DNA of 53,159 nt, from positions 1 through 53,159 of IMG/VR virus record IMGVR_UViG_3300024344_000019. One strand, given 5' to 3'. The notes below the pieces were generated by a model, which worked only from the letters and a program-made list of their open reading frames with translations, made no database searches and had not been told where the DNA came from. Of this stretch, positions 19,163-50,698 are shown piece after piece (the stretch's first letter is position 1; the number at the start of each line of letters is the position of its first letter). The stretch comes from a virus. The position numbers and the translations under genes are program-made.

Positions 19163-19930
19163 TTATCTAGGTATTGCTTTGCATTTAAACACTAGTGAAA
19201 CTCTGAATTTATCACTCTCTACTGCTCTTGCAACATGGGGTATTCTAGCGTCAAACAATACAACACGCCCTGCCCTTGGCCAATATGATTTTACAATGTT
19301 CATATTAGGGTCACCATTAAGACCATAAGGTGTATTGATTGCCATTGCTTTCATTTCATCATCTAGATTAGGTGTCCAAAACTCTATCGTACCACCATCT
19401 TCTGGTCGCCAGTCAGGTGTTAGATATACAATGACTGTATATTGGTCGCCAGTCCATCCATCAATATGAATACCGCCAGATTGACCTGCGTGATGTCCGT
19501 TAAGATAATGTCTTAATAGTTTTGCACCAGGATTTACTTTATCCCAAATCTCTTGTACCCAATCTTGTTCAATTTCATAATCAACTTCTTTAGTATCACT
19601 ACCACCTAAATGAATATGTTTATAACCAGGTGTCTTTGCTTCGTTCTTCATTTTTTCAGACGAATACCAACCGTCTTGCCAATCCATATTCATTACAATA
19701 TCATAGTATTTTTTTATATCATCTTCGGGTATTGTGCCATCAGACGCTTGTATGATTTTATGATAGTCTCCGCCTTTTAAAGCGTCAGCCTTTATTGTAT
19801 AAACTTTATCAGTTTTTGTATCTGTAATTTGAAAGTTCTCAGGATCTTCTGGATTGCCTATTGACTCAATATCAAACTTTTTTGCTTGTGAAGTAAAATC
19901 TTTTTCAGGATCAATTATCTTGGTGGTCAT
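19163..19930 (-). CDS. 2OG-Fe(II) oxygenase
   Basis: 255 aa from the ATG at 19930; a TTG seven codons upstream lies in a Lys run and is less likely. The C-terminal half is a prolyl-4-hydroxylase-like domain. GGIHIDGWTGDQYTVIVYL gives the HxD metal pair, DGGTIEFWTP a conserved strand, IPHVARAV the distal His, and KFRVSLVF the Arg that binds 2-oxoglutarate. Such enzymes hydroxylate proteins, nucleobases or small molecules; the substrate is unknown. It overlaps the 110-aa gene by 20 nt. Confidence 0.85.
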   Translation of the reverse strand: MTTKIIDPEKDFTSQAKKFDIESIGNPEDPENFQITDTKTDKVYTIKADALKGGDYHKIIQASDGTIPEDDIKKYYDIVMNMDWQDGWYSSEKMKNEAKTPGYKHIHLGGSDTKEVDYEIEQDWVQEIWDKVNPGAKLLRHYLNGHHAGQSGGIHIDGWTGDQYTVIVYLTPDWRPEDGGTIEFWTPNLDDEMKAMAINTPYGLNGDPNMNIVKSYWPRAGRVVLFDARIPHVARAVESDKFRVSLVFKCKAIPR

Positions 19931-20243
19931 TTTTTTCTTCTTCTTCTTCAAATAGTATCATGGTAATTAAACTATAAATTGCCATGTCCATTAAAGTGTC
20001 TTTGATACTTTCTTCTTTAAATTTAAATTCACCTTTTTTGATGAAGTTACTTATACGAGCATACTTATCGCCCATACGAACAACGGAACCTTGCCAAGCA
20101 GGTATGCCTGATAATTCTGACAATCTAAAATTAGCAAAGATATCTTCATTTGCACCATAATCATGTCGTTTTTTATCGTGTAATGTTTTAATTACATCTA
20201 TGATTTCATAAAATCTTTTGCTTTGTTTGTTTATATCGTCCAT
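19911..20243 (-). CDS. DUF1599-like nucleotide-modification-associated protein
   Basis: 110 aa. The pattern KKRHDYGANEDIFANFRLSE, then RMGDKYARISNFI and ESIKDTLMDMAIYSL, resembles the DUF1599 / nucleotide-modification-associated domain family, small helical proteins distantly like MazG. The enzyme activity is not established. The acidic tail overlaps the oxygenase start. Linkage to an oxygenase is compatible with nucleotide modification but does not prove it. Confidence 0.7.
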   Translation of the reverse strand: MDDINKQSKRFYEIIDVIKTLHDKKRHDYGANEDIFANFRLSELSGIPAWQGSVVRMGDKYARISNFIKKGEFKFKEESIKDTLMDMAIYSLITMILFEEEEEKNDHQDN

Positions 20244-23690: not shown

Positions 23691-23719
23691 ATTATACACT
23701 ATATATAATTTTTTGTCAA
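23691..23719 (-). promoter_or_regulatory. Early promoter of the uvsX-gp41 operon
   Basis: TTGACA (23719-23714), 17-nt spacer, TATAAT (23696-23691), 10 nt to the ATG. GC precedes the -35 box. The -35 hexamer overlaps the stop codon of the methyltransferase gene. Confidence 0.9.
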
Positions 23720-25044
23720 GCAAAGAACTCATCTAAAGTTGCCTTTCTTGAATTTTTAAATAGGTCTGTTTCTGGTCCAAAACACCAAACATTTTCTATA
23801 AACATCTTATTCATAAAGTCTGCCTTTTCTTGCTCATCTTTAAATAATGTATCTGATTTTGGTCGTTGCATAATTCTCATGCCAATCTGACCAAGAAATT
23901 TATCTTTAAACTTATCTACCAATTCATCGCCAGAACGATATCTAATACCGTGTATCTTTGGATCCATAATATTTACAAACATGAACTTAGATACTTCCAT
24001 AGTTTTTTCTGCAACTGGTAAATAAAACTCATCACGCCATTTATCATACTCGTTGAACTTATGCCATGATTGGTCCTCTTGATGTTCCCCACCTTTGTTA
24101 TATTGTTCGGTAGAGAAGTATGGTGGACTTGTAAATGCAACATCAATCTTTGGTAGTTTGTGATATGGTAAATCTTCAGCACCACATCTCCATATGTGAA
24201 CCTTTTTAGGTTTATCTAAAAATTTATTATATGTTGCAATCTGTTCTTGATATCTTTGGTAAGTATTAGGATTAGGATCACAGCCATAATATTCTTCAGC
24301 GTCTGAAGCAAAGAAACCTGCAAGTCTATCACCCCAACCACAACTTGTATCTAATACAGTTTTAGCATTTGTGATATCATAGATTGCCTTTGCAACGACA
24401 GGTTTAAATTGTGTTGCAATATAAGTACCTAATCTAAATGCTGATATATAACTTTTTTCATCTAACTGACCACCGACTAGTTTCTCTGTTTCAGTACCAT
24501 CTAATTCTTTTATCTTTGTAAGTTTAACTCCATTTATACCTCGCCATATGGGTCCTAGGCATTTCCAGATAGCATAGGCATCACCGTTCTCCCAAACTTC
24601 TTTAGGTGCTCGAAAGCCATAACTACTACATTCTAATCTCAAATCTTGCATGAAATAATTACTTACATCATTAAAGGTACTAGCACCATTTATTAAGCCA
24701 AGACCCCACTTACTATAAGAGTATTTGTAATCATCATACTTTTCAAATACTTCTTTTTCTACTTGCTCATTAGGAATGCAAATGGTACTAGTATCAAACT
24801 TTTTAAGATTGGCAAATGCTGTTCTCATATCTTCTTTTGTAATTTCTTTGAGAGGAAAGACTGGTCTTTCACTAGCAATATAGTCTGCCAAGTGTGTTCT
24901 CATCTTCTCTTTTCCGTACTCAGCGTTCATTTTTTCGAAGATACTTGATGTCAAGACAGGTAGTTTTCCGTCTGTAGCGGCGGCTATGAGACGGTTATAT
25001 AGTGTATTATCTCTAATATAGTGTGTAAATGCGTTTTCTTTCAT
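23716..25044 (-). CDS. Amino-type DNA methyltransferase with C-terminal clamp-binding-like peptide
   Basis: 442 aa. The catalytic motif is TSPPYF (~308-313), and the SAM-binding motif I is VLDTSCGWGDRLAGF (~232-246). This order and the SPPY motif place it among N4-cytosine/N6-adenine methyltransferases. The N-terminal ~200 residues are of unknown role, perhaps target recognition. The protein ends KATLDEFFA, nearly the same as the C-terminus of the adjacent DNA polymerase (QATLDNFF), a PIP-box-like clamp-binding pattern. Its start overlaps the polymerase stop (TAATG). It could methylate new DNA at the fork. No matching nuclease is adjacent. Confidence 0.88.
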   Translation of the reverse strand: MKENAFTHYIRDNTLYNRLIAAATDGKLPVLTSSIFEKMNAEYGKEKMRTHLADYIASERPVFPLKEITKEDMRTAFANLKKFDTSTICIPNEQVEKEVFEKYDDYKYSYSKWGLGLINGASTFNDVSNYFMQDLRLECSSYGFRAPKEVWENGDAYAIWKCLGPIWRGINGVKLTKIKELDGTETEKLVGGQLDEKSYISAFRLGTYIATQFKPVVAKAIYDITNAKTVLDTSCGWGDRLAGFFASDAEEYYGCDPNPNTYQRYQEQIATYNKFLDKPKKVHIWRCGAEDLPYHKLPKIDVAFTSPPYFSTEQYNKGGEHQEDQSWHKFNEYDKWRDEFYLPVAEKTMEVSKFMFVNIMDPKIHGIRYRSGDELVDKFKDKFLGQIGMRIMQRPKSDTLFKDEQEKADFMNKMFIENVWCFGPETDLFKNSRKATLDEFFA

Positions 25045-27539
25045 TAGAAGAAGTTATCCAGGGTTGCTTGTTTTTCAAAATTCCAGTTGATTGCATTGAC
25101 AATAAATCGTAATGGTTCTAAAAATGACTTGTCAAACTGCTCATCAAAATCAATATATTGGTGTAGATTAAATTCTTTTGGTAAGTGTGTTGGGAAAGAT
25201 ATCACCTTTTCTCTTAATGGATTAGGTTCTTTTAAAACAATAAATTTAATCTTATCGCCTTCTTGTATTACTTCATACTTTCTTAATTTGTTTTTCTTTA
25301 GTAAATTATTATACAGTAGAGCACCTTTCACATGAATTGGTGTTGACTTTTGATATATGTCTGTTGATGAAGAATACTTTTTAAGATTATTACATGAACG
25401 AGGATAAGCAATTTCTTCTGGTCGTAACTTTTTGAAATGTGTTCTAAACTCATCAATAAATTGTATCAAAGCATTTTCATCTTTATTCATAATTACTTTC
25501 AATGCCTCTTTAATCTTGATACGACAAGGGGCAGGAGTTGAACTCTTAACTGCTTCAATACCCATAATCTTTAATTTAGGTTCTTTCAAATCAACACCTT
25601 CTTCATTATAAACATTTAAGATATATCTTTTCTTAGCAGTCCAGATACCTTTGTTTGCAATTACTTCTCGTTTCATAATCATTTTTTGGTCAAATGCTTT
25701 TACATATTTAGCAAGATTATCATAACTCTTATCAATTGCAATTTGTAATTTTTCTTCACAAAATTTATCTAGAACTTTTACAATCTTTCTTGTATCAGAT
25801 TTATCTTTAAATATTTTATCTACAACTGCACCAAGTTTTACATAGATAGAATCAGTATCAGAAGCCACAACATAAACTACGTTTTTAGTTTTAAGTAAAT
25901 TATTTAAATAATTATTTACGTCTCTTTCAATCCATCTAATCGCAAGTTGACCTGCCTTTGTAATACCTTCAGCGTGTCTTACATCAAAATATTTAAAGTA
26001 TTGATTGCCGATAGCACCATAGGCACTATTCAAAGCAATCTTTCTTGCAAGTTGAATATTATGGTTAGCAGCGATATCATTTAATAATCTTTTATCACCA
26101 GTTTCTTGATACAAAGATTTTGCTTCTAACATTTTCTTTTTATATACAACTCGTTCTTTATAAAGTTTCTCCATCAACTTAGGAAGAAAACCTCGTTTGT
26201 CTGTACGAAACTGAGCACCGTTTGGTGTTATGGTACAACCATCTAAATGAGATAAATCAGATTCTTGATTTAACATTTTTTCAACACTTACAGAATTAGG
26301 TTCAAACCCGACCATTGTTTCAGGAGATATATTATACTGCATAATCAAATGAGGATATAGACTATTCAAATCAAAACTACAAATCCAATCGTGAAAACCT
26401 ACAACTGGATCTTTTACATATGCACCTTCATAACCACCAGAATATTCGTTTTCATTTACAGCAGGACAAACAAGTTTATTCTCTTTTAGATAATTAAATA
26501 TAATTGTATCCCACATACGAACTTGACCAAATACATCTTGATAATTAACTTTTGCTTCATAGGCCATAGTTAAGTGTAAAGCAATCAACTGCATTTTATC
26601 TTCTAACTTATCAACTATCTCAACGTCTTGAATATTATACTCTACAAATAATTGATAGTCGTTAGAATAAAACTCTTTGAAAGTATCATATGGATTCTCT
26701 AATTTATTTTCACCTAATTCTACTTCACCGATATAATCTAGTTTATAACTTTCTTGTCTAACAAATGTATGTTTACGATATAAGTCAAGATAATCTAAAA
26801 CTGAAACACCTAAAATATCATAATAGTTTTGTTCTTTGTTAAAACCTTTAGCAGTTATTCTTGCACTACTTTGATTTACGATACCCCAAGGACTAAACTG
26901 ATTTAAATATTCATCGCCCATAAGATATTTAAATCGATTCATTAAATAAGGAATATCAAAGAACTTAACATTCCAACCAGTTACAACATCTGGATTATAA
27001 GCAGTCCAGAACTTTGTAAACTTTTGTATTAAATCTCTTTCAGTAGAACATTTAAAATATTTTACATCATCACGGTCATTGACAAAGTTGCCACATCCAA
27101 AAACAATAATACTTTTTCTTGCATGGTCTTTTACAGTAATACAGATTAAAGGTTCTTCAGCCTTATCTACATCAGGAAAACCATTTTCACTTTCACACTC
27201 AATGTCAATTGTGATTAATCTTATTTGTTTAATATCCCAATCAACTTTGCCTGGGAACTCATCTGCGATATATGGATATTGAAATCTTGTATTACCAAAA
27301 TATTCAAAGTTAGTTACATCTTTGTATTCGTCAATCCATTTTCTTGCCTCGAACATACTATCATGTTCAATCTTTGCTACATTACGACCATCTAATGTTT
27401 TATATCCTGTTTCTTTTTGAACAGGTGTAAACAAAGACGGTTTGTAATTTACTCTAAACTTTTTGTGGCTGCCATCATGGTTAACTCCTCTTACTAAGAG
27501 TCGACCTTTATATGGCAGCACACTAGTATAAAATTTCAC
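25044..27539 (-). CDS. 43: Family B DNA polymerase, T4 gp43-like
   Basis: 831 aa (T4: 898). Proofreading ExoI is LITIDIECE with D112 and E114, the same numbering as T4. The polymerase A motif is DLNSLYPHLI; the B motif is KIALNSAYGAIGN; the C motif is VVASDTDSIYV, with the catalytic Asp pair. The protein ends QATLDNFF, a match to the QxxLxxFF clamp-binding box, expected to hold gp45. The start codon is GTG, overlapping the upstream stop as TAGTG. No intein is visible. Confidence 0.96.
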   Translation of the reverse strand: MKFYTSVLPYKGRLLVRGVNHDGSHKKFRVNYKPSLFTPVQKETGYKTLDGRNVAKIEHDSMFEARKWIDEYKDVTNFEYFGNTRFQYPYIADEFPGKVDWDIKQIRLITIDIECESENGFPDVDKAEEPLICITVKDHARKSIIVFGCGNFVNDRDDVKYFKCSTERDLIQKFTKFWTAYNPDVVTGWNVKFFDIPYLMNRFKYLMGDEYLNQFSPWGIVNQSSARITAKGFNKEQNYYDILGVSVLDYLDLYRKHTFVRQESYKLDYIGEVELGENKLENPYDTFKEFYSNDYQLFVEYNIQDVEIVDKLEDKMQLIALHLTMAYEAKVNYQDVFGQVRMWDTIIFNYLKENKLVCPAVNENEYSGGYEGAYVKDPVVGFHDWICSFDLNSLYPHLIMQYNISPETMVGFEPNSVSVEKMLNQESDLSHLDGCTITPNGAQFRTDKRGFLPKLMEKLYKERVVYKKKMLEAKSLYQETGDKRLLNDIAANHNIQLARKIALNSAYGAIGNQYFKYFDVRHAEGITKAGQLAIRWIERDVNNYLNNLLKTKNVVYVVASDTDSIYVKLGAVVDKIFKDKSDTRKIVKVLDKFCEEKLQIAIDKSYDNLAKYVKAFDQKMIMKREVIANKGIWTAKKRYILNVYNEEGVDLKEPKLKIMGIEAVKSSTPAPCRIKIKEALKVIMNKDENALIQFIDEFRTHFKKLRPEEIAYPRSCNNLKKYSSSTDIYQKSTPIHVKGALLYNNLLKKNKLRKYEVIQEGDKIKFIVLKEPNPLREKVISFPTHLPKEFNLHQYIDFDEQFDKSFLEPLRFIVNAINWNFEKQATLDNFF

Positions 27540-29206: not shown

Positions 29207-29618
29207 CTTCGATTTTTTTACCTATGTTATATTTCGCTTGTAAGTCCCAATCATTCTTTTCTTTAAATGATAAAACTTTAATTTGTGATAGAGGTGCTTT
29301 TTTCTCAGCAACTGTAGCATTAATTATTGCAATTAATCCCCAATCTGCCAATAACTGAGCAATCGTATTTCTTCTTTCAATATCATTGTCGGTTAAGTTT
29401 GCTTCTTTACCATCTAACGCAAATAGTTCCTTAAAATGCGTTATGAAATATCTACCTTGTTTGTGTAGTATATGACACGATTGAAATAATTTTTTATCTT
29501 TTCTAGAGGCAACACCAATTCTAGTTAGTGTTTCACGAACCTTTAAAAAATCGTCTGGTTCTTTTAATTGTACTTCCAGCATTTTCTCTGGATGCCAACT
29601 GTTATCTAATTCATTCAT
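29187..29618 (-). CDS. regA: RegA translational repressor
   Basis: 143 aa (T4 RegA: 122). Strong similarity by eye to RegA: DFLKVRETLTRIGVASRKDK, LFQSCHILHKQGRYFITHFK, RRNTIAQLLADWGLI. Binds the start-codon region of early mRNAs and blocks ribosome access. As in T4, it lies directly behind gp44-gp62. The start overlaps gp62 by 4 nt. Confidence 0.93.
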   Translation of the reverse strand: MNELDNSWHPEKMLEVQLKEPDDFLKVRETLTRIGVASRKDKKLFQSCHILHKQGRYFITHFKELFALDGKEANLTDNDIERRNTIAQLLADWGLIAIINATVAEKKAPLSQIKVLSFKEKNDWDLQAKYNIGKKIEDEGTEV

Positions 29619-30004
29619 TTTATCCCACCTTTGTATAATTTTTCCTTAATGAGTTTTATCTCATCTTTGGTGAGTATATCAAGAGCGGATTTTGCTTTAT
29701 CATTACTATAGCCATAATACTCTTTTACACACTCAATTTCTTTTAGTTTACTCGCCCTCAAAAACGGACTATACCGTTTCTTCGTTCTAATACTATTTAG
29801 TAGAAATTGAAATTGCATATCTTTATCAATGAAGTGATTTCTATTCATTTCATTAACAAGCATTATAGTGTCTGAAAAAGCAGACAATAGTTTATTTACG
29901 ATAAATGCAGGATACTTTTTCTTCCATAATTCATCATCTGAATCCATTAGATCCTTTTTAGTGAAGTTTATGGCGTTTAAGTATTCTTTTAATTCGTAAC
30001 TCAT
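29615..30004 (-). CDS. 62: Sliding-clamp loader small subunit, T4 gp62-like
   Basis: 129 aa (T4: 187). Helical protein starting MSYELKEYLNAINFTKKDLM, with WKKKYPAFIVNKLLSAFSDT and MNRNHFIDKDMQFQFLLNSI. The sequence pattern and place between gp44 and regA identify it. Acts with gp44 to open and load gp45 on DNA. 4-nt overlaps with both neighbours. Confidence 0.9.
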   Translation of the reverse strand: MSYELKEYLNAINFTKKDLMDSDDELWKKKYPAFIVNKLLSAFSDTIMLVNEMNRNHFIDKDMQFQFLLNSIRTKKRYSPFLRASKLKEIECVKEYYGYSNDKAKSALDILTKDEIKLIKEKLYKGGIK

Positions 30005-30939
30005 TTGAATTTAACCTGGGACATCAATTCAGTTAAACAGGCCACCAAGTTAATTTCTTGGTCTGCAACAAAGGCAGACTTATACTGATAATCAGCAATA
30101 ATTAAAACAGCATGAGGTATAGTTTCTGGTTCTAAACTCTCATACATATTGTCATAAATTTTACGAAATATTTTAACTGGATCATTGTCAAGATTATTGA
30201 CAACCCATTTTCTCATATCACTAAACTCTTTACCTTTTAAATGTGTTACAAGTGTCTTTAAGTTTTCGTCTGATACATTAACAAGAATACCAGCGTCAAT
30301 AGTACCACTTACAGAATATCTTTGTAGTTCATTGATAAGTTTTCTAAAGTCTGGAAAATGTTTCTTGATTAATTCAGCAAGTACCTTTTCTTCAAAGTCA
30401 ACATTCTGTTCTTTCAGAATATGAGTTGCTCTTGAAAACAACTGACTTGCTAATTTAGGTTTATCTTTTGGATTAATTCTAAATTCAATATTAGAAAATC
30501 TACTATGCAAAGGTTCTATGATTCTATTCTTGAAGTTACAAGTAAGAATAAATCTACAATTCTTATGAAACTCCTCAATGAAACCTCTTAATGCAGGTTG
30601 TGTAGATTGTGGATTAAGATAATCTGCCTCGTCAAGTATAACTACTTTTTTACCACCTGATAGTGATACAGTAGAAGCAAAGTTTTTAATCTTGTTTCTT
30701 AATACATCAATGCCACCTTCTTCGGAACCATTAATCATTATCCAATCACAATTTAATTCTTCACATAATGCTTTTGCAACTGTGGTCTTACCAATACCTG
30801 GTGTACCTGAAAATAATAGATTAGATAATTCGCCTTTAGTAATAAAGGATTTAAATAGTGTTTTTAATGATGATGGTAATATACAATCATCAATAGTTTT
30901 AGGCCGATACTCCTCGACCCATAGAAAGTCTGTATTCAT
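30001..30939 (-). CDS. 44: Sliding-clamp loader large subunit, T4 gp44-like AAA+ ATPase
   Basis: 312 aa (T4: 319). Walker A is GTPGIGKTTVAKAL (45-58), Walker B is VVILDEADYLN, and the arginine finger is likely in HSRFSNIEF. Four copies with one gp62 load the clamp. Ribosome-binding site GGAG before the ATG; 29 nt from gp45, so one transcript. Confidence 0.95.
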   Translation of the reverse strand: MNTDFLWVEEYRPKTIDDCILPSSLKTLFKSFITKGELSNLLFSGTPGIGKTTVAKALCEELNCDWIMINGSEEGGIDVLRNKIKNFASTVSLSGGKKVVILDEADYLNPQSTQPALRGFIEEFHKNCRFILTCNFKNRIIEPLHSRFSNIEFRINPKDKPKLASQLFSRATHILKEQNVDFEEKVLAELIKKHFPDFRKLINELQRYSVSGTIDAGILVNVSDENLKTLVTHLKGKEFSDMRKWVVNNLDNDPVKIFRKIYDNMYESLEPETIPHAVLIIADYQYKSAFVADQEINLVACLTELMSQVKFK

Positions 30940-30968: not shown

Positions 30969-31643
30969 TTACTTACTGATTGTACTGTCTGGCTCAAGAG
31001 CAATCCAATATTCAATAGGTAGTTTTTTGTTTTTGAAATGAGATATAGACTTTGAAGATACTGAAACATCATAATCACCAGATATCATTTTTAAATTTTC
31101 TACTTTAAAATAGAAAGTATAATCTGCTGTAGCACTTTCGCCTACAACGATATCAAAGTTATTAGATGTATCATTCTTTTTATCACATACTTTTAACACT
31201 ATATCACCACCTTTTGTTCCTACTAATGCAAGGTCAGGTGTTTTTAGAATCGCAGCCATCTTTTTCAATTCTGTAAGATGTGATTCTGATAAACTAAAAG
31301 TAACATCTGCCTCTGGCATATTTACTTCTTTAGTTGGCGACACTAGAACTGACGGATCAGAATAAAAGTATTTTGCTTTTGACTTACTGCCTTCAGCAGA
31401 AATAGTCATAAATTTATCTTGTAAAGATAATTCAGGTTTGTTTAGTCCTGACATTACTGCAAGAAATTCATTAAGGTCATAGATACCAAATTCAGTATCA
31501 AATGATTCATCAATATTTGCTTTTGCAAATATATTTCTCATAGTAGATATTGTACTTAATTCTTTTCCTGGTTTAATCAATATATTAGTATTGATTTCAG
31601 AAAAGTTTTTAAGTATGTTTTGTGTGTTTTGATTGATTTTCAT
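30969..31643 (-). CDS. 45: Sliding clamp, T4 gp45-like
   Basis: 224 aa from ATG 31643 (T4: 228). A GTG 15 nt upstream overlaps the ribosome-binding site and is less likely. Two-fold beta-rich repeat pattern (MKINQNTQNILKNFSEINTN ... FDIVVGESATADYTFYFKVE). Tethers gp43 and activates late transcription through gp55. Preceded by a perfect promoter whose -35 lies inside the terminator of the previous gene. Confidence 0.93.
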   Translation of the reverse strand: MKINQNTQNILKNFSEINTNILIKPGKELSTISTMRNIFAKANIDESFDTEFGIYDLNEFLAVMSGLNKPELSLQDKFMTISAEGSKSKAKYFYSDPSVLVSPTKEVNMPEADVTFSLSESHLTELKKMAAILKTPDLALVGTKGGDIVLKVCDKKNDTSNNFDIVVGESATADYTFYFKVENLKMISGDYDVSVSSKSISHFKNKKLPIEYWIALEPDSTISK

Positions 31644-31678
31644 AATATTAATATTCACCTTTTTGTTTAATTAAAATC

Positions 31679-38994: not shown

Positions 38995-40074
38995 CTACTT
39001 TTTAAAGATAAAAGTTGGTTCGAATTTACGACCTGATATGTCGGGTCTCACGAATCGACCCATATATTGTTGTTTTTGTTTAGTTTCAGTAGTATCGCCA
39101 TCTAGTGTAGATACGGCAGAACCCCCTTGTTGAGTCGATAATGATAACCACCACGTATCTGTATGTTCAAACCCTACTGATTCGGCAAGTTCAACTGTAT
39201 CTTCCTCAAAGGTTTTGTACTGTTTAGTATTCGCAACATTAAGAGCAAGGTATTTACCCCCTTTAAGCCCCTTGTATGCGTTGGCAATCGTCTGTTTTAG
39301 AAACTTCTCTTTCCATATTTCAGATGTATCAAACTTAATACTTGATTGTTCTGGTTCATCACCATATGCTTCCCAACCAAAATACGGTGGACTTGTAAAT
39401 ACAAAATCTAGACTTTCATCTTCTGGTATAAATGTCTCACTACCTTGTCTATAAAGATGATAGTTATTATGTGTATTACCATATTGTGTACATATTTGAG
39501 ATAATCCTTTATAAGTAGGAATACAAGGGTCAGTACCAATATAGTTTATGCCAGCTGCGATTGCACCAAGTAATCGACCACCATACCCCATAGATGGATC
39601 CCATACTGTGCCTGCTTTTGTTCCTTCAAGTGGACTATCTTTATCTACAAATACATCATATAGAGCTGCGGCTGCTGTAGGTCTAAAATTAGATACCATT
39701 TGAGTGCCACTATATCTTCTTAACATAGACCTCATATCTGATTCTGTAATCATATGAGCAGGTTTCTTCATAAAGAAAGTGCCTGATAGTATCTTGTTTA
39801 ATCCTTTTTTAAGATGTTCTTCATCATCCCATATCTCCATAGGCGTTTTCATTTTACCACACTTAATACCCCATGCGTGTTCCATATAAGACCATGCAAG
39901 ATTTAGGCCGTGTGCTGATTGACCTATGATTTTATTTTTTCTATCAATAAGTGTGTCTCGTCTAAAGTTTACTAACTGATTAAATATCTCATCACGCCAT
40001 TTTTGATTTGTAGGGTAATATGGAAAACCTTTATCTTTCCACTCATCATGTATTTGTTGTAAATTATCTGTCAT
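38995..40074 (-). CDS. Amino-type DNA methyltransferase (second copy)
   Basis: 359 aa from ATG 40074 (GGAG 12 nt upstream); longer starts run into the upstream gene. Motif I: VWDPSMGYGGRLLGAIA; catalytic motif TSPPYFGWE (~222). Same class (N4-cytosine/N6-adenine) and general plan as the 442-aa enzyme, but it lacks the clamp-binding-like tail. No nuclease is adjacent, so probably a solitary enzyme protecting phage DNA or changing host marks. Overlaps the GNAT gene by 11 nt. Confidence 0.87.
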   Translation of the reverse strand: MTDNLQQIHDEWKDKGFPYYPTNQKWRDEIFNQLVNFRRDTLIDRKNKIIGQSAHGLNLAWSYMEHAWGIKCGKMKTPMEIWDDEEHLKKGLNKILSGTFFMKKPAHMITESDMRSMLRRYSGTQMVSNFRPTAAAALYDVFVDKDSPLEGTKAGTVWDPSMGYGGRLLGAIAAGINYIGTDPCIPTYKGLSQICTQYGNTHNNYHLYRQGSETFIPEDESLDFVFTSPPYFGWEAYGDEPEQSSIKFDTSEIWKEKFLKQTIANAYKGLKGGKYLALNVANTKQYKTFEEDTVELAESVGFEHTDTWWLSLSTQQGGSAVSTLDGDTTETKQKQQYMGRFVRPDISGRKFEPTFIFKK

Positions 40075-40489
40075 ATAAGTAAACATCTCCTGGTAGTGTG
40101 CCTTTTGCCCATGTGGTAGAACCAACTAGTTTCATATCATTTTTAACATAGAATTTTTTTGCTATTTCGTTATCACTACGAACACTTAAATAAACTCGTC
40201 TTGGTTTTACAAACTCAAAAAACTTTTGTAGTGCCTGACTTGCTGAACCATTTTGATGTTTAGCAGCGATTTGATGTAAAATACAATCACCTTGTTGAGC
40301 AATTATATCACCTATTCTTTGTTTTCTTTTATAAAAATTATATGTAATAACAACATCATTATCATATACAAGATTATTCTTCGCAATCATACGTTTCATA
40401 TAATCAGTTCTTATATGTGGAAACCATTTCTTATGTTGATAAAAGATTTCTTTTACCGCTTCAAAGTCTGTTTCTTTGGCATGATTCAT
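40064..40489 (-). CDS. GNAT-family acetyltransferase
   Basis: 141 aa. IAAKHQNGSASQALQKFFEF is the acetyl-CoA-binding helix region (with Q/G-x-G/A-like turn), and RVYLSVRSDNEIAKKFYVKN, then MKLVGS are the typical GNAT ending. Substrate unknown. Probably leaderless: the ATG lies 6 nt past a perfect TATAAT. Confidence 0.75.
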   Translation of the reverse strand: MNHAKETDFEAVKEIFYQHKKWFPHIRTDYMKRMIAKNNLVYDNDVVITYNFYKRKQRIGDIIAQQGDCILHQIAAKHQNGSASQALQKFFEFVKPRRVYLSVRSDNEIAKKFYVKNDMKLVGSTTWAKGTLPGDVYLYDR

Positions 40490-40495
40490 AGATGT

Positions 40496-40524
40496 ATTAT
40501 ATCATAGTTAATTAAGAAAGTAAA
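40496..40524 (-). promoter_or_regulatory. Early promoter of the GNAT/methyltransferase operon
   Basis: TTTACT (40524-40519), 17-nt spacer, TATAAT (40501-40496), 6 nt to the ATG. GC precedes the -35 box, which lies within the end of the upstream gene. Confidence 0.85.
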
Positions 40525-41129
40525 GCCCTCATTTTTTCATTAGAGTAGCAATCAGCAACTAGGTGTATTCTATCAATATTGCTAGTATTTCTTACGGCGT
40601 GTGCTTTTGTAACATCGGTATAATAGTAGTGTCCAGTTTTTAAATTGTATTCTGTGCCATCTTTATCTTTTGTACTTTCATATAAAGTAAATACCACATT
40701 ATCATTCGTTCTAATTGGCATATGGATTCGAATAATATCGCCATCATCAAATCCAATATCTTTGTCTATCTTGTCTGTATGTTTACCAATAACTTTACCT
40801 GCTTCTAATCTCATAAATCTAACCCTCTCAAACTCACATGGTAAATTATCAAGCATATCTAAAATAGGTGTCATGATACTACTTTCTTTTAAAGATGTCC
40901 ATTGTAGTTTTTCTTCAGTTTTTACTGAACTCTTTAGTACACCAGGTTTTAATATATCTAAAGGGTCTGGTCCATATCCATGTAGTGATATAGCATCCCA
41001 TCCTGTTTTGACATATTTTGTTTTTACTTTTTTAAAATTCATATTATCAAGATTTGCGGCCACACTATTAAGTATTGAAGTGTCTTTATATGCCTCTAGT
41101 GATAATTCTTTCATTATAGGTCTAGTCAT
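40512..41129 (-). CDS. Aspartyl/asparaginyl beta-hydroxylase-like 2OG oxygenase
   Basis: 205 aa. RVRFMRLEAGKVIGKHTDK gives the HxD metal ligands, and TDVTKAHAVRNTS gives the distal His with an Arg nearby, followed by RIHLVADC. This resembles aspartyl/asparaginyl beta-hydroxylase domains. Likely hydroxylates a protein; the target is unknown. Starts 2 nt past the 79-aa gene. Confidence 0.82.
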   Translation of the reverse strand: MTRPIMKELSLEAYKDTSILNSVAANLDNMNFKKVKTKYVKTGWDAISLHGYGPDPLDILKPGVLKSSVKTEEKLQWTSLKESSIMTPILDMLDNLPCEFERVRFMRLEAGKVIGKHTDKIDKDIGFDDGDIIRIHMPIRTNDNVVFTLYESTKDKDGTEYNLKTGHYYYTDVTKAHAVRNTSNIDRIHLVADCYSNEKMRALLS

Positions 41130-41885: not shown

Positions 41886-42615
41886 GTCTTAATCTTTGTT
41901 GTTGTGCTCTAATGGTTTGTTTAATTAATTTAGATTGTGCTTTTTTACCTCTTTCTAATTTCATTTTACTTACTAGGTCGGTAAACACATATCCATTCAT
42001 ATGTTCGTTTTCATGTTGAAATATCCTTGCTGACATACCATGTAGATATTCGTCAATCGTTTCACCGTTCTCATCTGTATATTTTACATTTACCCATTTA
42101 GGTCTTTTGATTGATAAGAATAAGAAAGGATAGGATAAACAACCTTCTTTCATTAATACTGTTTCAGGACTTACATCATTAATTAATGGATTAAAACAGT
42201 TTCTTACTTTACCATCTTCTATCTGTGGGTGCCCACCCATAACAAACATACGAAATGGTAAACCAACTTGATTACAAGATAATCCTATACCACCATATTT
42301 AACCATACTGTTATACATTTTTTTAGATAAATCTTTTCTATCTTCTATTTTAAACTCTTTTAACATATCATCTGTATATGGTGCTATTCTCATTAATAAT
42401 CTAGGGTCAGTAGGTGGTATTAGTGGATATGTATTAGGGTCTTTCTTTTTTAGGTATTCATGCATATCGTTAATAGGTTGTGCTTGACTATCTAAAATAG
42501 GTTGTTCTTTTAAAAGACCTTGGTCTTTTTCTATAATAGGCGTTTTACCACTCGTAATATTTTCGTAGTGTCTTGCCGCTTCTTCTATTTTTTCTGGTGT
42601 TAGTTTATCTGCCAT
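41848..42615 (-). CDS. def: Peptide deformylase with N-terminal extension
   Basis: 255 aa; the usual length is ~170. Three deformylase motifs are present: GGIGLSCNQ (108-116), EGCLS (157-161; metal-binding Cys) and HENEH (201-205; HExxH). Removes the formyl group from new proteins. The first ~65 residues are a charged helical extension of unknown role. Phage deformylases are known in marine T4-like phages. Confidence 0.93.
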   Translation of the reverse strand: MADKLTPEKIEEAARHYENITSGKTPIIEKDQGLLKEQPILDSQAQPINDMHEYLKKKDPNTYPLIPPTDPRLLMRIAPYTDDMLKEFKIEDRKDLSKKMYNSMVKYGGIGLSCNQVGLPFRMFVMGGHPQIEDGKVRNCFNPLINDVSPETVLMKEGCLSYPFLFLSIKRPKWVNVKYTDENGETIDEYLHGMSARIFQHENEHMNGYVFTDLVSKMKLERGKKAQSKLIKQTIRAQQQRLRHEVATKDENISE

Positions 42616-43195
42616 TTTTAAGTTTTCCTTTAATTGTTGCTATAGTTTCAGGAACACCAAGATGATGAAACCAACCTGTGATAATATATTTATCGTGTTG
42701 TGAAACAATCCCTCTATGAGTGTGTGTGAAATCAGTAGGCCATAATAAACTTAGACCTCTTTTTGCTTTTATTTTGACTTCTGGATAATATACAAACTCT
42801 GTTCCACCACCATCAGGAACATCATTTAAATATGTCATAAAAACTAATGCTCTTTGGTGTGATTGATGTTGGTCTCTCTCATTGTGCCATCGTTTAAATC
42901 CTTGTCCAGGTCCATAGTGTTGTATGTTAAAGCCCTCAGAAATAGTTAGTTCAGGATTAAAATATTCATACTTATTAGAATATGCTTTTAATCCGTTTAT
43001 AAGATAATTGGTATAACTTTTGATAAATTTATTATTAGATACAAATTGAATATTAACATCTGTGGATTGTTTAGTATCTTTATCATGTGTTGCTTCGCTG
43101 TTGTATTTGTATTCTGTATTATTTTTGTGATAATCAATAAGACCATCAAATAACTCATCATTGTCTATCTGAAAAGGTAATATAAAGTTTTCCAT
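42605..43195 (-). CDS. Prolyl-4-hydroxylase-like 2OG-Fe(II) oxygenase
   Basis: 196 aa. INQHYG-type strand, FKRWHNERDQ (HxE metal ligands), ALVFMTYLNDVPDGGGTEFV, RGLSLLWPTDFTHTHRGIVS (distal His), KYIITGWFHH. The Lys in KYIITGW may take the place of the usual Arg. Substrate unknown. Overlaps the deformylase start by 11 nt, and its start overlaps the gp46 stop (TAATG). Confidence 0.85.
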   Translation of the reverse strand: MENFILPFQIDNDELFDGLIDYHKNNTEYKYNSEATHDKDTKQSTDVNIQFVSNNKFIKSYTNYLINGLKAYSNKYEYFNPELTISEGFNIQHYGPGQGFKRWHNERDQHQSHQRALVFMTYLNDVPDGGGTEFVYYPEVKIKAKRGLSLLWPTDFTHTHRGIVSQHDKYIITGWFHHLGVPETIATIKGKLKNGR

Positions 43196-44910: not shown

Positions 44911-45373
44911 TCACATACCCTTCTAGTTTATCATAATCATAAAAAATTGAAACCTTTTTATGTCTAAATTTTTGTTCGGCTATATATTCTTTTATACCTG
45001 GTCGCCATCCTTCACCAAGTATTGCTAGTATAACTTCATACTCTGGAAACTTGTGTCTAACATTCTCTAACAGATATGGTATTTTTTCATCTGTGGATCC
45101 TGCCTTTTCTTGTGATTTAAATTCTATTCTAATTCTTCTATTGTTTAGTATTAACACAAATTCTGTTTTACACATACTACCTGGATAGATACTTTCATAA
45201 GGAAAATCTTTGACTAGTATTTTATTATCTTCATCAAAAGAACCTGTACCGCTTTTTGACCATCTACTATGATAGATACTGCCTATATCTTTTGAATTAC
45301 AAAACAATTCAAATTTTTTCTCATAAGACATACCATCTACTTTGGCCTTTCTTAAACTAGGATTAGATATCAT
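44882..45373 (-). CDS. PD-(D/E)XK-type nuclease-like protein
   Basis: 163 aa. MSYEKKFELF helix, then CKTEFVLILNNRRIRIEFKS: an acidic residue in a strand followed by E-x-K, the pattern of PD-(D/E)XK nucleases, followed by a helix (LLENVRHKF) and EVILAILGEGW. It overlaps the MT-A70 methyltransferase by 4 nt (ATGA). Such pairing suggests a restriction-modification-like unit or a nuclease checked by methylation. Could equally be a repair nuclease. Confidence 0.6.
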   Translation of the reverse strand: MISNPSLRKAKVDGMSYEKKFELFCNSKDIGSIYHSRWSKSGTGSFDEDNKILVKDFPYESIYPGSMCKTEFVLILNNRRIRIEFKSQEKAGSTDEKIPYLLENVRHKFPEYEVILAILGEGWRPGIKEYIAEQKFRHKKVSIFYDYDKLEGYVNDIISKSKI

Positions 45374-45906
45374 ATTTCATTTCCCCAAGCATCCCATCCA
45401 TCAAATTTTTGTCTAGCAAATAATTCTATTCTAGGTAGGTCGCCACATAACTCAACTATGTCGTGTCTAATTCTATCTGGTTTTCTACTATGTTCTCTGC
45501 GTTGGTCTATAACTAATTGTGCCACAGACTTACTAATTCTTTTTGGTTTACCTTTTGTTGCAAGTAAACACATTTCTGGATTACTTCTAGTCCAGTATCC
45601 TAAACCTGTAAACATTCCCATATTACTCTTGTTTGATTTTGCCCATGTAAATGCAACTGTTTTATATACAAAGTTCCAAGACTTTATTACTTTAAATGCT
45701 TTTTCTAGTAAAGGGTCTGTAACCCACATAAACAAAATACTATTGTCTTTGGATATATCTTTCACAGGTAAATTACAAATATCTTTTATTGTCATACAAT
45801 CATAATGTTGTGTTGCATTTCTACCATCACCTTTCTTAGAATATGATTTAAAGTTCCAAGGCGGGTCGGCATATATTATATCATATTTTTTATTCGGTAG
45901 CAACAT
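45370..45906 (-). CDS. MT-A70-type adenine methyltransferase
   Basis: 178 aa from ATG 45906; a TTG 18 nt upstream is less likely. DPPW motif (D14) in IIYADPPWNF, then FMWVTDPLLEKAFKVIKSWN and the C-terminal RIELFARQKFDGWDAWGNEI, typical of the MT-A70 family (m6A). Probably methylates DNA. Overlaps gp47 by 17 nt and the nuclease-like gene by 4 nt. Confidence 0.9.
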   Translation of the reverse strand: MLLPNKKYDIIYADPPWNFKSYSKKGDGRNATQHYDCMTIKDICNLPVKDISKDNSILFMWVTDPLLEKAFKVIKSWNFVYKTVAFTWAKSNKSNMGMFTGLGYWTRSNPEMCLLATKGKPKRISKSVAQLVIDQRREHSRKPDRIRHDIVELCGDLPRIELFARQKFDGWDAWGNEI

Positions 45907-46969
45907 CCGTATCTTGTGCCTCAATGTACATTTCTTTAATCATAACTTTTAATTTATCTTTATCTAAATCAACTGGCAACTGGTCAACATAATTATTAAC
46001 TAGTGTAATAGTATCTTCGGATCCTTCTACCACATCATCACTTACATTCGTATGACTAAGGTCAGAATAATCTTCTATTATTTTTAATTCGTTTACACTT
46101 ATTTTGTTATAAAGCTTATCAAGCAATCTATCAAACATCTGATTGTCTTTTTTGTTGACAACAACTAACTTAACAAATTTTTGATTGTAGTCTGTTATAT
46201 CAAGTTTATCGTAATCTGTTTTGGTATCATCATACATAAGTTTCTTAAATATTGTATATGGATTTTTTATAAACTCTACTTCTCTTGTTTCGGTATCAAA
46301 TACATGAAACCCTTTTTGATTGTTATAATCTGACCAAGTCATTTCATATTGACTACCTAGATAAAATACTTGACCATCATCATTCTTGTGGTGAAAGTGA
46401 CCACTATATGTTTTTTCAAATCGTGATACAATACTCTTGTCGTGGCCATGTGTTTGAACCATAGTGTCCATCATTCTAAATCCGTTCAAATCAAAATGAC
46501 CCATGCATACATCAGCGTTTGCTGTGTTTAACATTTCCATACAATATGCTTCGTTTTCAGGATTAATCCAAGGCATCATCAAAATATTTAAACCATCAAA
46601 ATCTACAACTTTTGGATCCTCGTAAATAAATGGCTCATTAACACCATCAGGCGCTGTGCATAATTCTTGAACAGCATTTACTTTGTTTGTGTTTCTATAA
46701 TAGATATCATGATTACCTATAATGATATGAGTATCAATTTTGTCTTGCCATAATCTATTCATAAACTTGTTTCTAAAGTTATGAGCAATTCTATAATTAA
46801 TAAACTTTCGTCTATCAACAATATCACCTAAATGAACAAGTGTTTTTATGTTGTGCTCTTTTAGGTAAGGAAAGAATATATTATCATAGAACTTATAAAA
46901 GTATTCGTCAAATATATTACTATCGTTACGAGCACCAAAATGGGTGTCGTTTAACAATGCTATTTTCAT
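45890..46969 (-). CDS. 47: Recombination endonuclease subunit, T4 gp47-like (SbcD/Mre11 type)
   Basis: 359 aa (T4: 339). Calcineurin-like phosphoesterase motifs: LLNDTHFG (D8, H10), LVHLGDIVDRR, IIIGNHDIYY, VCMGHFDLNG, YSGHFHHKN. Nuclease partner of gp46 in end resection and host DNA breakdown. In T4 the two genes are near neighbours; here the nuclease/methyltransferase pair lies between. Confidence 0.95.
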   Translation of the reverse strand: MKIALLNDTHFGARNDSNIFDEYFYKFYDNIFFPYLKEHNIKTLVHLGDIVDRRKFINYRIAHNFRNKFMNRLWQDKIDTHIIIGNHDIYYRNTNKVNAVQELCTAPDGVNEPFIYEDPKVVDFDGLNILMMPWINPENEAYCMEMLNTANADVCMGHFDLNGFRMMDTMVQTHGHDKSIVSRFEKTYSGHFHHKNDDGQVFYLGSQYEMTWSDYNNQKGFHVFDTETREVEFIKNPYTIFKKLMYDDTKTDYDKLDITDYNQKFVKLVVVNKKDNQMFDRLLDKLYNKISVNELKIIEDYSDLSHTNVSDDVVEGSEDTITLVNNYVDQLPVDLDKDKLKVMIKEMYIEAQDTDVATE

Positions 46970-46970
46970 A

Positions 46971-47456
46971 TTATTTTTTAGTCGGTTCTTCTTTTAAATT
47001 CTTTTGTAGATAATCTAACATTTGACTTTGGTATACAGCGTCATCGCCTTTTAATTGATCCATCATGTTTTCTACACCTGCATTAGCAATTAACTTAGAT
47101 TTTATTTGTATTTGTTTTTTCTCTTTCTGTATTCTTCTAATAAATGCGTAATATATTATTTGTGTAAAATATGCAAATGGATTTTTACTTTTCTCTGGAT
47201 TAAAATTATCCATATATTGTAAACAATTCTCAATACCATCGCTAATCATGTCGTCTCTAAAAGTATAATTAATAAAGTTTGGTCTATAAGATAAATGATT
47301 GGCAATCTTTAAAAAACATTCACCAATATAGTTTGTTACCATTGGTCGTTTTTTACCTTTTTCTTCTGCCGTTTTAACTTTAAGTCTAAACTCAGTCATC
47401 GCTTCAAGAAACTTTTTGTTATCAACGTAATGTGGTTTTTCTTTTGCTTTTTTCAT
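46971..47456 (-). CDS. 55: Late sigma factor, T4 gp55-like
   Basis: 161 aa (T4: 185). YIGECFLKIANHLSYRPNFI, RDDMISDGIENCLQYMDNFN, NPFAYFTQIIYYAFIRRIQK match the gp55 conserved core, a short sigma70 region 2. Directs RNA polymerase to TATAAATA late promoters, which are present here. Residues 143-150 (QSQMLDYL) near the end could be a clamp-binding peptide. Probably leaderless: ATG 6 nt past the -10. Confidence 0.9.
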   Translation of the reverse strand: MKKAKEKPHYVDNKKFLEAMTEFRLKVKTAEEKGKKRPMVTNYIGECFLKIANHLSYRPNFINYTFRDDMISDGIENCLQYMDNFNPEKSKNPFAYFTQIIYYAFIRRIQKEKKQIQIKSKLIANAGVENMMDQLKGDDAVYQSQMLDYLQKNLKEEPTKK

Positions 47457-48071: not shown

Positions 48072-49549
48072 TATTCTTTTAACTCAATATTGTGCATTTC
48101 GTAATCAAATTCTTCTTCGGTATAAATGTTTATTCTTTCTTGAAAATGTTTTAATGTAAAGTTTTCTTTTGATTTATAAGTTAAATCATCTGCTATATCA
48201 TACAAAGTAGCATTAACCTTATTGTCACCTAATCTTAAACCACGACCTATACTTTGTAAATTTCTTATTCTACTCTTTGAAGGACTTGCAAAAATAATAT
48301 TGTGTAAGTTTTTAATATTAACACCAGTAGAAAATGTACCATAACTTGCAACAATAATAGCATTCTTTTCTTTTTCTACTATGCCTCTAATTGCTTCTCT
48401 TTCATCTGCTTCGACACCACCAAAAATATAAAAAACTTTTCGATTTTTACCAGCCTTCTCTTTTATTATTTCATGTAAATTTTTACCATGTTTTTCTACT
48501 AGTTGAAATAATACTAAAGTATTACCTTTTAATTTAAGTGCTAAGTTTTTAATAAAATTTTGTCTTGATTTGCTACTTACTAGATAATCTATCTCATCTT
48601 GATATTTACCATTTACAACCATCTTACTATTTTCTGCTGTATGTTTTAAGATTAAACAACGAACCACTAAATTAGATAGTTGTTTTTTATCCATAAGTTT
48701 TCTTGTAGATGTAACTTTATTTACAGCACCAAATAATCCCTCTAATACTAGTTTGTGAGTTTGAGCACCATCAAGTGTACCAGTAAGACCAATACGATAT
48801 TTACAATCTTCAAGTTTTGTCATAATCTCTGTAAGTGATTTAGATTTAAATAAGTGTGCTTCATCACCAAATACAACACCAAACTGTTCAAAATATTTTT
48901 TCGGCAACTTGTATAAACTTTGCCATGTAGATATTAGTACTTTTTTAGTTGTTTGATTTGAATATCCACTATACAATCTATGACAATTTTTCTTTACATT
49001 CCAACCATACGATTCGAAGTCTGAATACATCTGCTCAACCAACGAGGTTGTCGGTACAATCAATAATATTCGATTGTTAGGGTTATCTTTAATTAAGTGA
49101 GAATAATATCGTATTAACGAATATATGATGAATGACTTACCTGACGCTGTAGGACTTAGTAGCAACGCCCTATTGAACTTTAAACTATGATATATGGCGT
49201 CTATCTGATAGTCTCTTGCCTCAAATTTTTGACCTAGACTATTAGAAAACTTTTTAACTATTTCTTTATCTACACTATTATTAATCTCAACATCTTTGCC
49301 TGCAACAATCTGATATCCTCGTTCTTCAGCAAAGGCTCTAATGTAGGGAAATAGTCCAAAGTAAATTTCTTTTGTTTTTTGAGAGTATAATCTTATCTTA
49401 CCATCCCACATACGATTACGGAATGCTGGCATAAACTTATATCCAGGAACATAAAATGTAAAGAACTCTGATATTTCTCGTTGAATGTTTTGGTCACAAT
49501 CAACGGTTATATAGACTTCGTTTTTCTTTTCAATGATTAAAGTATCCAT
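48071..49549 (-). CDS. uvsW: UvsW-type DNA/RNA helicase
   Basis: 492 aa (T4: 587). SF2 helicase: Walker A SPTASGKS (~131), DEAH box VFGDEAHLF (~226), GLTGTLDG, and motif VI SIGRGLRLG. N-terminal domain with DGKIRLYSQKTKEIYFGLFP as in UvsW. Remodels recombination and fork structures and unwinds R-loops, which shuts off origin replication late. Confidence 0.93.
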   Translation of the reverse strand: MDTLIIEKKNEVYITVDCDQNIQREISEFFTFYVPGYKFMPAFRNRMWDGKIRLYSQKTKEIYFGLFPYIRAFAEERGYQIVAGKDVEINNSVDKEIVKKFSNSLGQKFEARDYQIDAIYHSLKFNRALLLSPTASGKSFIIYSLIRYYSHLIKDNPNNRILLIVPTTSLVEQMYSDFESYGWNVKKNCHRLYSGYSNQTTKKVLISTWQSLYKLPKKYFEQFGVVFGDEAHLFKSKSLTEIMTKLEDCKYRIGLTGTLDGAQTHKLVLEGLFGAVNKVTSTRKLMDKKQLSNLVVRCLILKHTAENSKMVVNGKYQDEIDYLVSSKSRQNFIKNLALKLKGNTLVLFQLVEKHGKNLHEIIKEKAGKNRKVFYIFGGVEADEREAIRGIVEKEKNAIIVASYGTFSTGVNIKNLHNIIFASPSKSRIRNLQSIGRGLRLGDNKVNATLYDIADDLTYKSKENFTLKHFQERINIYTEEEFDYEMHNIELKE

Positions 49550-50100
49550 GTCATTATGCTATATCTGTTACCACTTATTACTTCTTTAACCTCATGAGGA
49601 AACATAAAGTTTGATGGAAAGACAACTGCTGAACCTTTTTTCTTTTCTAAAGATTCACCGCATAACATAAATTCACCACCCTCGTAATCATCATTTAAAA
49701 ATATTAATGATGTTAAATGAGGATAACCTGTTTTTTGTCCATGACTATGATGAATATTATCTATATGTTCTTTCATAAAACCGCCAGTTTCATAGCAGTT
49801 AATTCTAAAGTGTGTGTATTCTTGTATTTTAATTTTATCGTGTATTGATGTATAATCGTTTACGGCTGATTGAAATCCTTGATGTATAGTTTTATAACCA
49901 AACATATCAGGCATTATCCAAAACTCTTTCATATCAACTTTAGATGTACCTGTTACATTACTTGTTGTAGAAAAGGTAGAAGTTTTCCACTTTTTAAATG
50001 TGTCTTTATTATAATGTGCAACTATATTATCACAAGCAGTTTCTCCTAGTGCTTGAGGATAATAAAAGATATAATCAGAAACTTGCTGATTGGAACTCAT
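49537..50100 (-). CDS. 2OG-Fe(II) oxygenase (PKHD-type)
   Basis: 187 aa from ATG 50100 (AGGTGA ribosome-binding site). FRINCYETGGFMKEHIDNIH (HxD metal pair), LTSLIFLNDDYEGGEFML, SAVVFPSNFMFPHEVKEV (distal His), GNRYSIMTWI (Arg for 2OG). Prolyl-4-hydroxylase-like fold; substrate unknown. Overlaps uvsW and the next oxygenase gene. Confidence 0.87.
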   Translation of the reverse strand: MSSNQQVSDYIFYYPQALGETACDNIVAHYNKDTFKKWKTSTFSTTSNVTGTSKVDMKEFWIMPDMFGYKTIHQGFQSAVNDYTSIHDKIKIQEYTHFRINCYETGGFMKEHIDNIHHSHGQKTGYPHLTSLIFLNDDYEGGEFMLCGESLEKKKGSAVVFPSNFMFPHEVKEVISGNRYSIMTWIL

Positions 50101-50698
50101 GATGTTCACCTACCTGTCCTTTCACTTGCATATTCCAAGCAATACTTATGCGTTTATTATTAGACTTATTTTGTTGAACCCAATGTGGCAACCATGCAGG
50201 AAAAAATATTGCTCTATTTGATGTTGAAGCATAACTTAATAAACTAGAATTTAAAGTATTCTTTTCTTTTTTTCTAGGTACTATAACATCAGCTGCAGGT
50301 CGTGGGTCATGAAAAACTATACTTGCACCTTTATCAGATTGCAAATAATAAGTGCCACTTAAAAAATTATTTGAATGTGTATGAACAGGATGATGTTCAT
50401 TATACTTTAATACATTTGCCCACATATCAGTAATAATTAAATCTTCTACATCATAACCTAGTGTATTACAAATATCTTTACCAGTCTTTACAATCAAATC
50501 TGAAAAATACTTAAATTCTTTTTTTGTTTGTAAGTTTGCTGATTTTGTTTGCCAATTATCATCATAGTCTCTTTCTGACCATAAATCACTAATATATTTT
50601 TTCATATTAAGTACCGTTGATACCTCTGTTGCTGTTATTTGTGGTATAAAATTATCTAATAAGAATATATTAGTTGCGAATATTTTTTGATGTTCCAT
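50075..50698 (-). CDS. Putative 2OG-Fe(II) oxygenase (TIGR02466-like)
   Basis: 207 aa. ITDMWANVLKYNEHHPVHTH, SGTYYLQSDKGASIVFHDPR, IFFPAWLPHWVQQNKSNNKR, ISIAWNM follow the pattern of a putative oxygenase family common in marine phages (TIGR02466 from memory). Metal ligands likely in HTHS and LPHW. Substrate unknown. Overlaps the following oxygenase gene by 26 nt. Confidence 0.82.
   Translation of the reverse strand: MEHQKIFATNIFLLDNFIPQITATEVSTVLNMKKYISDLWSERDYDDNWQTKSANLQTKKEFKYFSDLIVKTGKDICNTLGYDVEDLIITDMWANVLKYNEHHPVHTHSNNFLSGTYYLQSDKGASIVFHDPRPAADVIVPRKKEKNTLNSSLLSYASTSNRAIFFPAWLPHWVQQNKSNNKRISIAWNMQVKGQVGEHHEFQSASF

Follow-up and report, generated by a model that had tools for sequence, protein, structure and literature searches.

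A polymerase-like C-terminal tail suggests clamp tethering of a phage methyltransferase and of other DNA-modification enzymes

Introduction

Why should a phage methyltransferase end in nearly the same residues as the DNA polymerase encoded beside it? The question is raised by IMG/VR virus record IMGVR_UViG_3300024344_000019, analysed here over its whole length of 53,159 nucleotides (the window) and belonging to a marine T4-like virus, in which the gene of a methyltransferase adjoins that of the family-B DNA polymerase gp43. An earlier note, made from the sequence alone, had seen a clamp-binding box in both C-termini and had proposed a methyltransferase that rides on the sliding clamp gp45 and marks new DNA at the fork. 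We propose that the methyltransferase tail is a gp45-binding epitope like that of gp43, tethering the enzyme to the clamp for preferential methylation of new phage DNA; from the sequence comparisons reported below, we put the probability of this reading at about 0.8. The results were compared with literature on clamps and phage DNA modification, including PMC13216743, PMC6024577, PMC2988020, PMC8670742, PMC7824862, PMC9690074 and PMC9004378.

Results

Two like C-termini in the window

Both genes lie on the minus strand, gp43 at 25044–27539 (phrog_262, 1074.6 bits) and the methyltransferase, of 442 amino acids, at 23716–25044, and the gp43 stop codon overlaps the methyltransferase ATG by one base at 25044. 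According to the translated open reading frames (ORFs), gp43 ends in QATLDNFF (25047–25070, minus strand) and the methyltransferase in KATLDEFFA, the two peptides that the earlier note had described. The proposed gp45-binding epitope, RKATLDEFFA, is encoded at 23719–23748 on the minus strand. Among the 57 minus-strand stop-to-stop ORFs of at least 100 amino acids, only these two carry [TSN]L[DE]xFF with 0–2 residues behind it at their end, and the chance of such an end from composition is ~1.2e-5 per C-terminus. A looser pattern gave 15 matches in 231 ORFs of at least 40 amino acids, with the LDxFF form again confined to gp43 and the methyltransferase. Aligned over 21 bases, the two tails agree at 15 and use different codons for Thr, Leu and Phe, so that they are not a recent copy of one another.

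The clamp box had been written as QxxLxxFF. Its LxxFF-type end is indeed common to both proteins, while its Gln is not characteristic, the first tail position in gp43 of relatives being Q, K, T, H or another residue; the Lys of the methyltransferase is therefore no objection. In PIP-box proteins the motif is QxxhxxFF, with Gln at position 1. The methyltransferase has Lys there, at a position that is unconserved among its relatives, and on the sequences compared the motif is better given as (T/S/N)L(D/E)xFF at the very end of the protein.

The window also encodes the clamp that a client of this kind would require, together with its loader. The proposed partner gp45 (30969–31658, minus strand) matches phrog_223 at 2.2e-77 and the gp45 proteins of T4 and RB69 at 1.4e-21 and 1.9e-20, and its model has a predicted local distance difference test (pLDDT) score of 94.2. 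The large and small clamp-loader subunits, gp44 (phrog_168) and gp62 (phrog_225), are encoded at 30001–30939 and 29615–30004, both on the minus strand.

Conservation among methyltransferase homologues

Relatives were taken from IMG/VR, as the best 80 of 280 stretches and, for the alignment query, the best 80 of at least 571. The conservation counts are drawn from all loci collected, which contain 128 methyltransferase ORFs uncut by contig ends, 86 of them unique. The tail stands at the end of 81 of the 86. Within these 81, L is invariant in spite of five codons, as is F(6), encoded by TTC in 36 and TTT in 45; D is kept in 80 and F(7) in 78. The methyltransferase of locus L032 has the motif followed by ~24 further residues, and a relative of only 42.5% identity (L421) still ends in GALDSFFG. 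The linkers ahead of the tail vary in sequence and length among relatives, and the tail is kept behind them. Absence of the tail from homologues, which the earlier note had named as the outcome that would speak against it, is thus not what was found. The distance between methyltransferase and gp43 was at most 60 bases in 32 of 67 unique loci, 60–1000 bases in 20 and more than 1 kb in 15; the tail is thus kept also where the two genes are far apart.

Cultured phages yielded no close homologue, the 24 matching records staying below 60% identity and each covering less than 80% of the query. A scan of genome contigs for cellular homologues gave 394 stretches with the pattern, of which 0 were confirmed. 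In phage Mosig, the record breaks off within a methyltransferase beside gp43, and the piece at the other end, Mosig_00205, does not resemble its continuation, leaving the tail unreadable. Shortened ends, ATLF or QTLF, were seen in one methyltransferase clade (L204, L208, L213, L245) and, at L285:20001-21329 and L290:3364-3999, in the Cr30 TET protein and a P12024L methyltransferase; they may represent a decayed tail or a different clamp motif.

Enzymes found by the tail alone

IMG/VR was also scanned for the tail alone, as LDEFFA or LEDFFG followed by a stop and blind to protein family, with families assigned by Pfam on representatives and for the rest by similarity. LDEFFA was found at 78 loci, 73 of which had an in-frame ORF end, giving 78 ORFs: 27 gp43, 32 TET/JBP dioxygenases, 9 C5 methyltransferases, 5 glycosyltransferases, 1 member of the present methyltransferase family and 4 others. 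LEDFFG was found at no fewer than 120 loci (at least 117 in frame) with at least 123 ORFs, at least 114 of them gp43; the other ORFs among the matches listed were one each of a glycosyltransferase, a T4-AGT-like protein (AGT, alpha-glucosyltransferase), TAGT, a PF01555 protein and a D12 methyltransferase, as well as two nucleases next to gp43 and two baseplate proteins. Among the matches listed for both scans, at least 201 ORF ends comprise 141 gp43, 52 DNA-modification enzymes, 2 nucleases and 6 others, and DNA-modification enzymes therefore make up 52 of the 60 tailed ORFs other than gp43. The same residues in scrambled order returned 8 loci with a single in-frame ORF, of 34 codons.

By family, with a loose pattern, 48 of 48 Mom and 35 of 39 TET proteins (unique, complete and viral) are tailed; with a strict one, 42 of 50 and 17 of 39. 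At 112 loci hooked by gp43, there are 926 unique and complete ORFs of at least 120 amino acids besides gp43; 22 of them bear the tail, and four permuted patterns gave 1, 1, 0 and 0; since gp43 neighbourhoods may be rich in such genes, 22 of 926 is not a genome-wide rate. The 22 consist of six TET, two TAGT, two AGT, one C5 methyltransferase, three other methyltransferases, one amino acid:DNA transferase (ADDT), two GNAT-like and two Asn-synthase/QueC-like proteins, two nucleases and one protein of unknown family. Some methyltransferase loci hold an adjoining tailed gene, for Mom (PF25680, 2.4e-45 to 3.3e-50 in the three tested) or an HNH nuclease, and some a second tailed methyltransferase (PF01555, 3.4e-20) upstream of gp43. 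Elsewhere, tails were found on an HMUDK-domain protein, on gp55 homologues and, in viral contigs, on AGT homologues (PF11440; 6.2e-37 in L154 and 1.6e-10 in L379). Nine antisense ORFs ending in SLSSFFL, which on our reading lie opposite the coding strand, are false matches and were not counted as clients.

Some tailed proteins were noted at single loci. Tailed nucleases of homing or restriction-like type directly behind gp43 or the methyltransferase (GIY-YIG/SegE, SinI-like and HNH) are found at L359:4640-5458, L351:4583-5047 and L042:1687-2124. Tailed proteins of phrog_13881/17781 (L185:2911-3990 and L130:9836-10930, the latter near the tailed HMUDK-domain protein) are candidate DNA-modification enzymes, and the tailed GNAT-like, ADDT and Asn-synthase/QueC-like proteins (L417:3969-5638, L348:2356-3039, L376:1961-2797) are perhaps parts of hypermodification pathways.

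Tails in named phages

Searches of 20 named phage records recovered gp43 in ten and gp45 in those same ten. In these cultured phages, Mom and TET proteins are tailed in five of seven cases in records with gp43 and gp45 and in none of ten in records without them (Fisher one-sided 0.0034, ignoring relatedness). The five are the TET proteins of DLP_6, C48C1 and Melnitz and the Mom proteins of Melnitz-3 and AsFcp_1. Untailed proteins in phages that lack gp45 are the TET of S-CBWM1, HTVC112P and P12024L and the Mom of Mu, F_MX560sp, VSiP, LP-114, Riggi, P12002L and ET-ABTNL-9.

Tails can also resemble that of the polymerase of the same phage. In Aeromonas phage AsFcp_1, gp43 ends in SLTDLFGDW and Mom in GLTDLFGDF, a common variant. 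For Cr30, the ends are ADLSSLFD in gp43 and SDLSKLF in a TAGT-like protein, whose TAGT match (0.00085) is below the cut-off, and in DLP_6 they are ATLDSFFA in gp43, ATLGDFFV in TET and DLSSFFN in TAGT. On unique tail pairs, client tails are closer to the gp43 tail of their own locus than shuffled pairs are: the observed value was reached in 1 of 5000 shuffles for the methyltransferase family, 10 for Mom and 145 for TET, relatedness being ignored. The Melnitz genes at L117:1415-6194 encode, one after another, gp43, a C5 methyltransferase and a protein that is annotated as hypothetical and belongs to Tet_JBP.

The methyltransferase and other genes of the window

The methyltransferase has a motif I, DTSCGWGD, and a motif IV, TSPPYF, both invariant in 25 sequences, and fold comparison of its model returned Rossmann methyltransferases, with a best Z-score of 13.1. 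The mean pLDDT of the model is 67, with values below 50 for residues 431–442, the low confidence that a linear motif would show if exposed. The match to PF01555 (N6_N4_Mtase) scores 22.5 bits against a gathering cut-off of 26.7, and because of this the protein is not filed in that family. It does combine a PF01555-type S-adenosylmethionine (SAM) motif I and an (S/D/N)PPY motif IV with the Rossmann methyltransferase fold, and by motifs and model it is a SAM-dependent amino-methyltransferase that would work like a PF01555 enzyme. SPPY points to N4-cytosine methylation. DNA is probably the substrate, judging from motifs and fold. The structural neighbours, which include METTL5, Trm11 and N6AMT1, are nearly tied in Z and count RNA methyltransferases among the closest folds, so that the fold does not settle between DNA and RNA.

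Two further methyltransferases of the window are tailless: an SPPY homologue that serves as an internal control (38995–40125, minus strand; hhalign E 1.9e-13 over 208 columns), ending in FIFKK, and an MT-A70-type enzyme (45370–45924, minus strand), ending in WGNEI. The tail therefore belongs to some enzymes and not to every methyltransferase of the phage. The late sigma factor gp55 of the window (46971–47456) has no C-terminal clamp tail of the LDxFF kind; that of locus L186 does carry a tail, DLSEFMQ. By eye, the ORFs at 19163–19951, 40512–41129, 42605–43195, 49537–50109 and 50075–50698 resemble 2OG-Fe(II) oxygenases.

Discussion

That the methyltransferase rides on gp45, as the earlier note had it, is strongly supported when sequences are compared: homologues keep the tail, which recurs on unrelated families of modification enzymes, goes with gp43 and gp45 in cultured phages and, in some lineages, follows the variant of the phage's own gp43. 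In the mechanism that we propose, the last 8–10 residues of the methyltransferase would bind gp45 as an epitope like that at the gp43 C-terminus, and the linker, variable among relatives, would connect the catalytic domain to the tail on the sliding clamp. Held by the clamp, the enzyme would then stay on phage DNA under replication, and new DNA would be methylated processively and by preference. Many unrelated enzymes of T4-type phages that modify bases after synthesis may use the same portable tail; if such tails are gp45 epitopes, they give access to loaded clamps and therefore to the phage's own replicating DNA.

Several observations weigh against this reading. Four of the 86 methyltransferases, one clade 62–65% identical to the window's enzyme, end in SRRATLF. 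The TET of Cr30 (ending in GATLF) and the Mom of Phynn are untailed in phages that have gp45, and no such tail is present on the C5 methyltransferase of Melnitz or on T4 dam, agt and bgt. Among the matches listed, six of the 60 tailed ORFs other than gp43, including two baseplate proteins, cannot be placed in an evident modification family, and motifs as short as the tail can occur by chance in large collections. The disregard of relatedness in the shuffle test counts in the same direction.

Among the alternatives, the strongest is that the tail does bind the clamp and has no coupling to the fork, the enzyme being parked on clamps that stay on DNA to serve packaging or late transcription, or simply being more concentrated around phage DNA at any time. 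A tail of this kind is what the T4 factors gp55 and gp33 use on DNA-tracking clamps (PMC2988020), and although alpha-glucosyltransferase has the larger share of T4 glucosylation, its binding to gp45 is not mainly responsible for this (PMC13216743). What can be set against it is the proximity to gp43, within 60 bases at 32 of 67 loci, which suggests only co-expression. We regard this alternative as plausible and yet rather doubtful. With loaded clamps serving late transcription too, the marking of new DNA at the fork, the second half of the earlier proposal, is the less firm part; gp45 binding, DNA as the substrate and an action at the fork or shortly behind it are what we infer.

It is very unlikely that the tail binds another partner, from the host or the phage, and has only converged on the form of the gp43 tail. 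Mom and TET are untailed in ten of ten cases in records without gp43 and gp45, the Mom of AsFcp_1 matches its own gp43 variant, and RB69 gp45 has been co-crystallised with the C-terminal 11-mer of gp43 (PMC2988020). We hold it to be just as improbable that the tail is a duplication scar, a gp43 end recombined onto the neighbouring gene and functionless there. The genes do adjoin here, and tailed nucleases directly behind gp43 (L351, L359) would follow from insertions that duplicate the tail at the end of gp43; copying is a possible origin of some tails. Yet the codons differ, L and F are fixed across 81 proteins while their codons vary, 15 of 67 genes lie more than 1 kb from gp43, and TET, Mom, AGT and others are tailed, the family-blind matches other than gp43 being mostly DNA-modification enzymes. 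For the methyltransferase, recent duplication was rejected on the codon differences and the fixed residues. Chance likeness of two short hydrophobic ends, conceivable as only 8 residues are involved, is negligible in view of the conservation in 81 of 86 homologues, on which it was rejected for this family, of the composition odds of ~1.2e-5 and of scrambled and permuted controls near zero.

Returning to the clamp-bound tail, we lean, with less assurance, towards a broader proposal: gp45 may act as a general platform for DNA hypermodification in T4-type phages, with ten or more unrelated families having repeatedly gained one portable C-terminal tag that is fitted to each phage's own clamp. The families meant are N4/N6-type and D12 methyltransferases, C5 methyltransferase, TET, TAGT, AGT, other glycosyltransferases, Mom, ADDT, the HMUDK-domain protein and the GNAT- and Asn-synthase/QueC-like proteins. 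Repeated acquisition of a clamp tag by modification enzymes would mean that modification is coupled to replication. A common clamp tag would be a simple, testable answer to the open question of how large phages, with genomes that replicate fast, get every copy modified ahead of restriction and yet waste no effort on host DNA. The tag would also be a sequence handle for finding new DNA-modification enzymes in viral metagenomes, phrog_13881/17781 being candidates, and cultured phages with tailed enzymes exist in DLP_6, Melnitz and AsFcp_1.

Comparison with known systems

Recruitment of a DNA methyltransferase to a clamp has a parallel in eukaryotic DNMT1, which a short N-terminal motif, a PIP-box of QxxhxxFF type, brings to a trimeric clamp of the PCNA fold. 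The present motif differs in being C-terminal, in having no fixed Gln, and in standing on unrelated enzymes and addressing a phage clamp. The tailed families likewise include those of the phage cytosine hypermodification pathway that Burke et al. are said to have described in 2021, with a C5 methyltransferase, TET and a glycosyltransferase.

Closer relatives of the proposed epitope are the interchangeable C-termini through which T4 gp43, gp55 and gp33 bind gp45 (PMC2988020), gp55 and gp33 using an LDFL motif (PMC9690074). Like these, the methyltransferase has a short, hydrophobic and acidic peptide at its extreme C-terminus, and the gp55 epitope, too, sits behind a divergent linker (PMC2988020). 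The T4 ends are SLDFLFG in gp43 and SLDFLYEAND in gp55, that is, of LDFL type, whereas the tails described here are LDxFF; and the known clients are a polymerase and transcription factors, in contrast to the base-modifying enzymes of this study.

The nearest precedent is T4 AGT (PF11440), which modifies DNA after replication and co-purifies with a T4-type clamp: it pulls down gp45, whereas the beta enzyme does not (PMC13216743), and an earlier claim of this association (Sommer 2004) is cited in the same paper. The share of alpha linkages in T4 is mostly explained by expression and not by clamp binding (PMC13216743, 2026). T4 AGT ends in EQFDIITK and lacks an LDxFF-type C-terminus, the tailed AGT homologues being those in viral contigs, and its contact with gp45 must therefore differ. 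The accessible text of that work describes no common tag or general rule across enzymes, and the literature searched, mostly outside subscription papers, gave no account of a common clamp tail on phage DNA-modification enzymes. The binding of T4 AGT to gp45 is thus already known; what is new is the tail common to base-modifying enzymes, which would broaden that single case to many chemistries.

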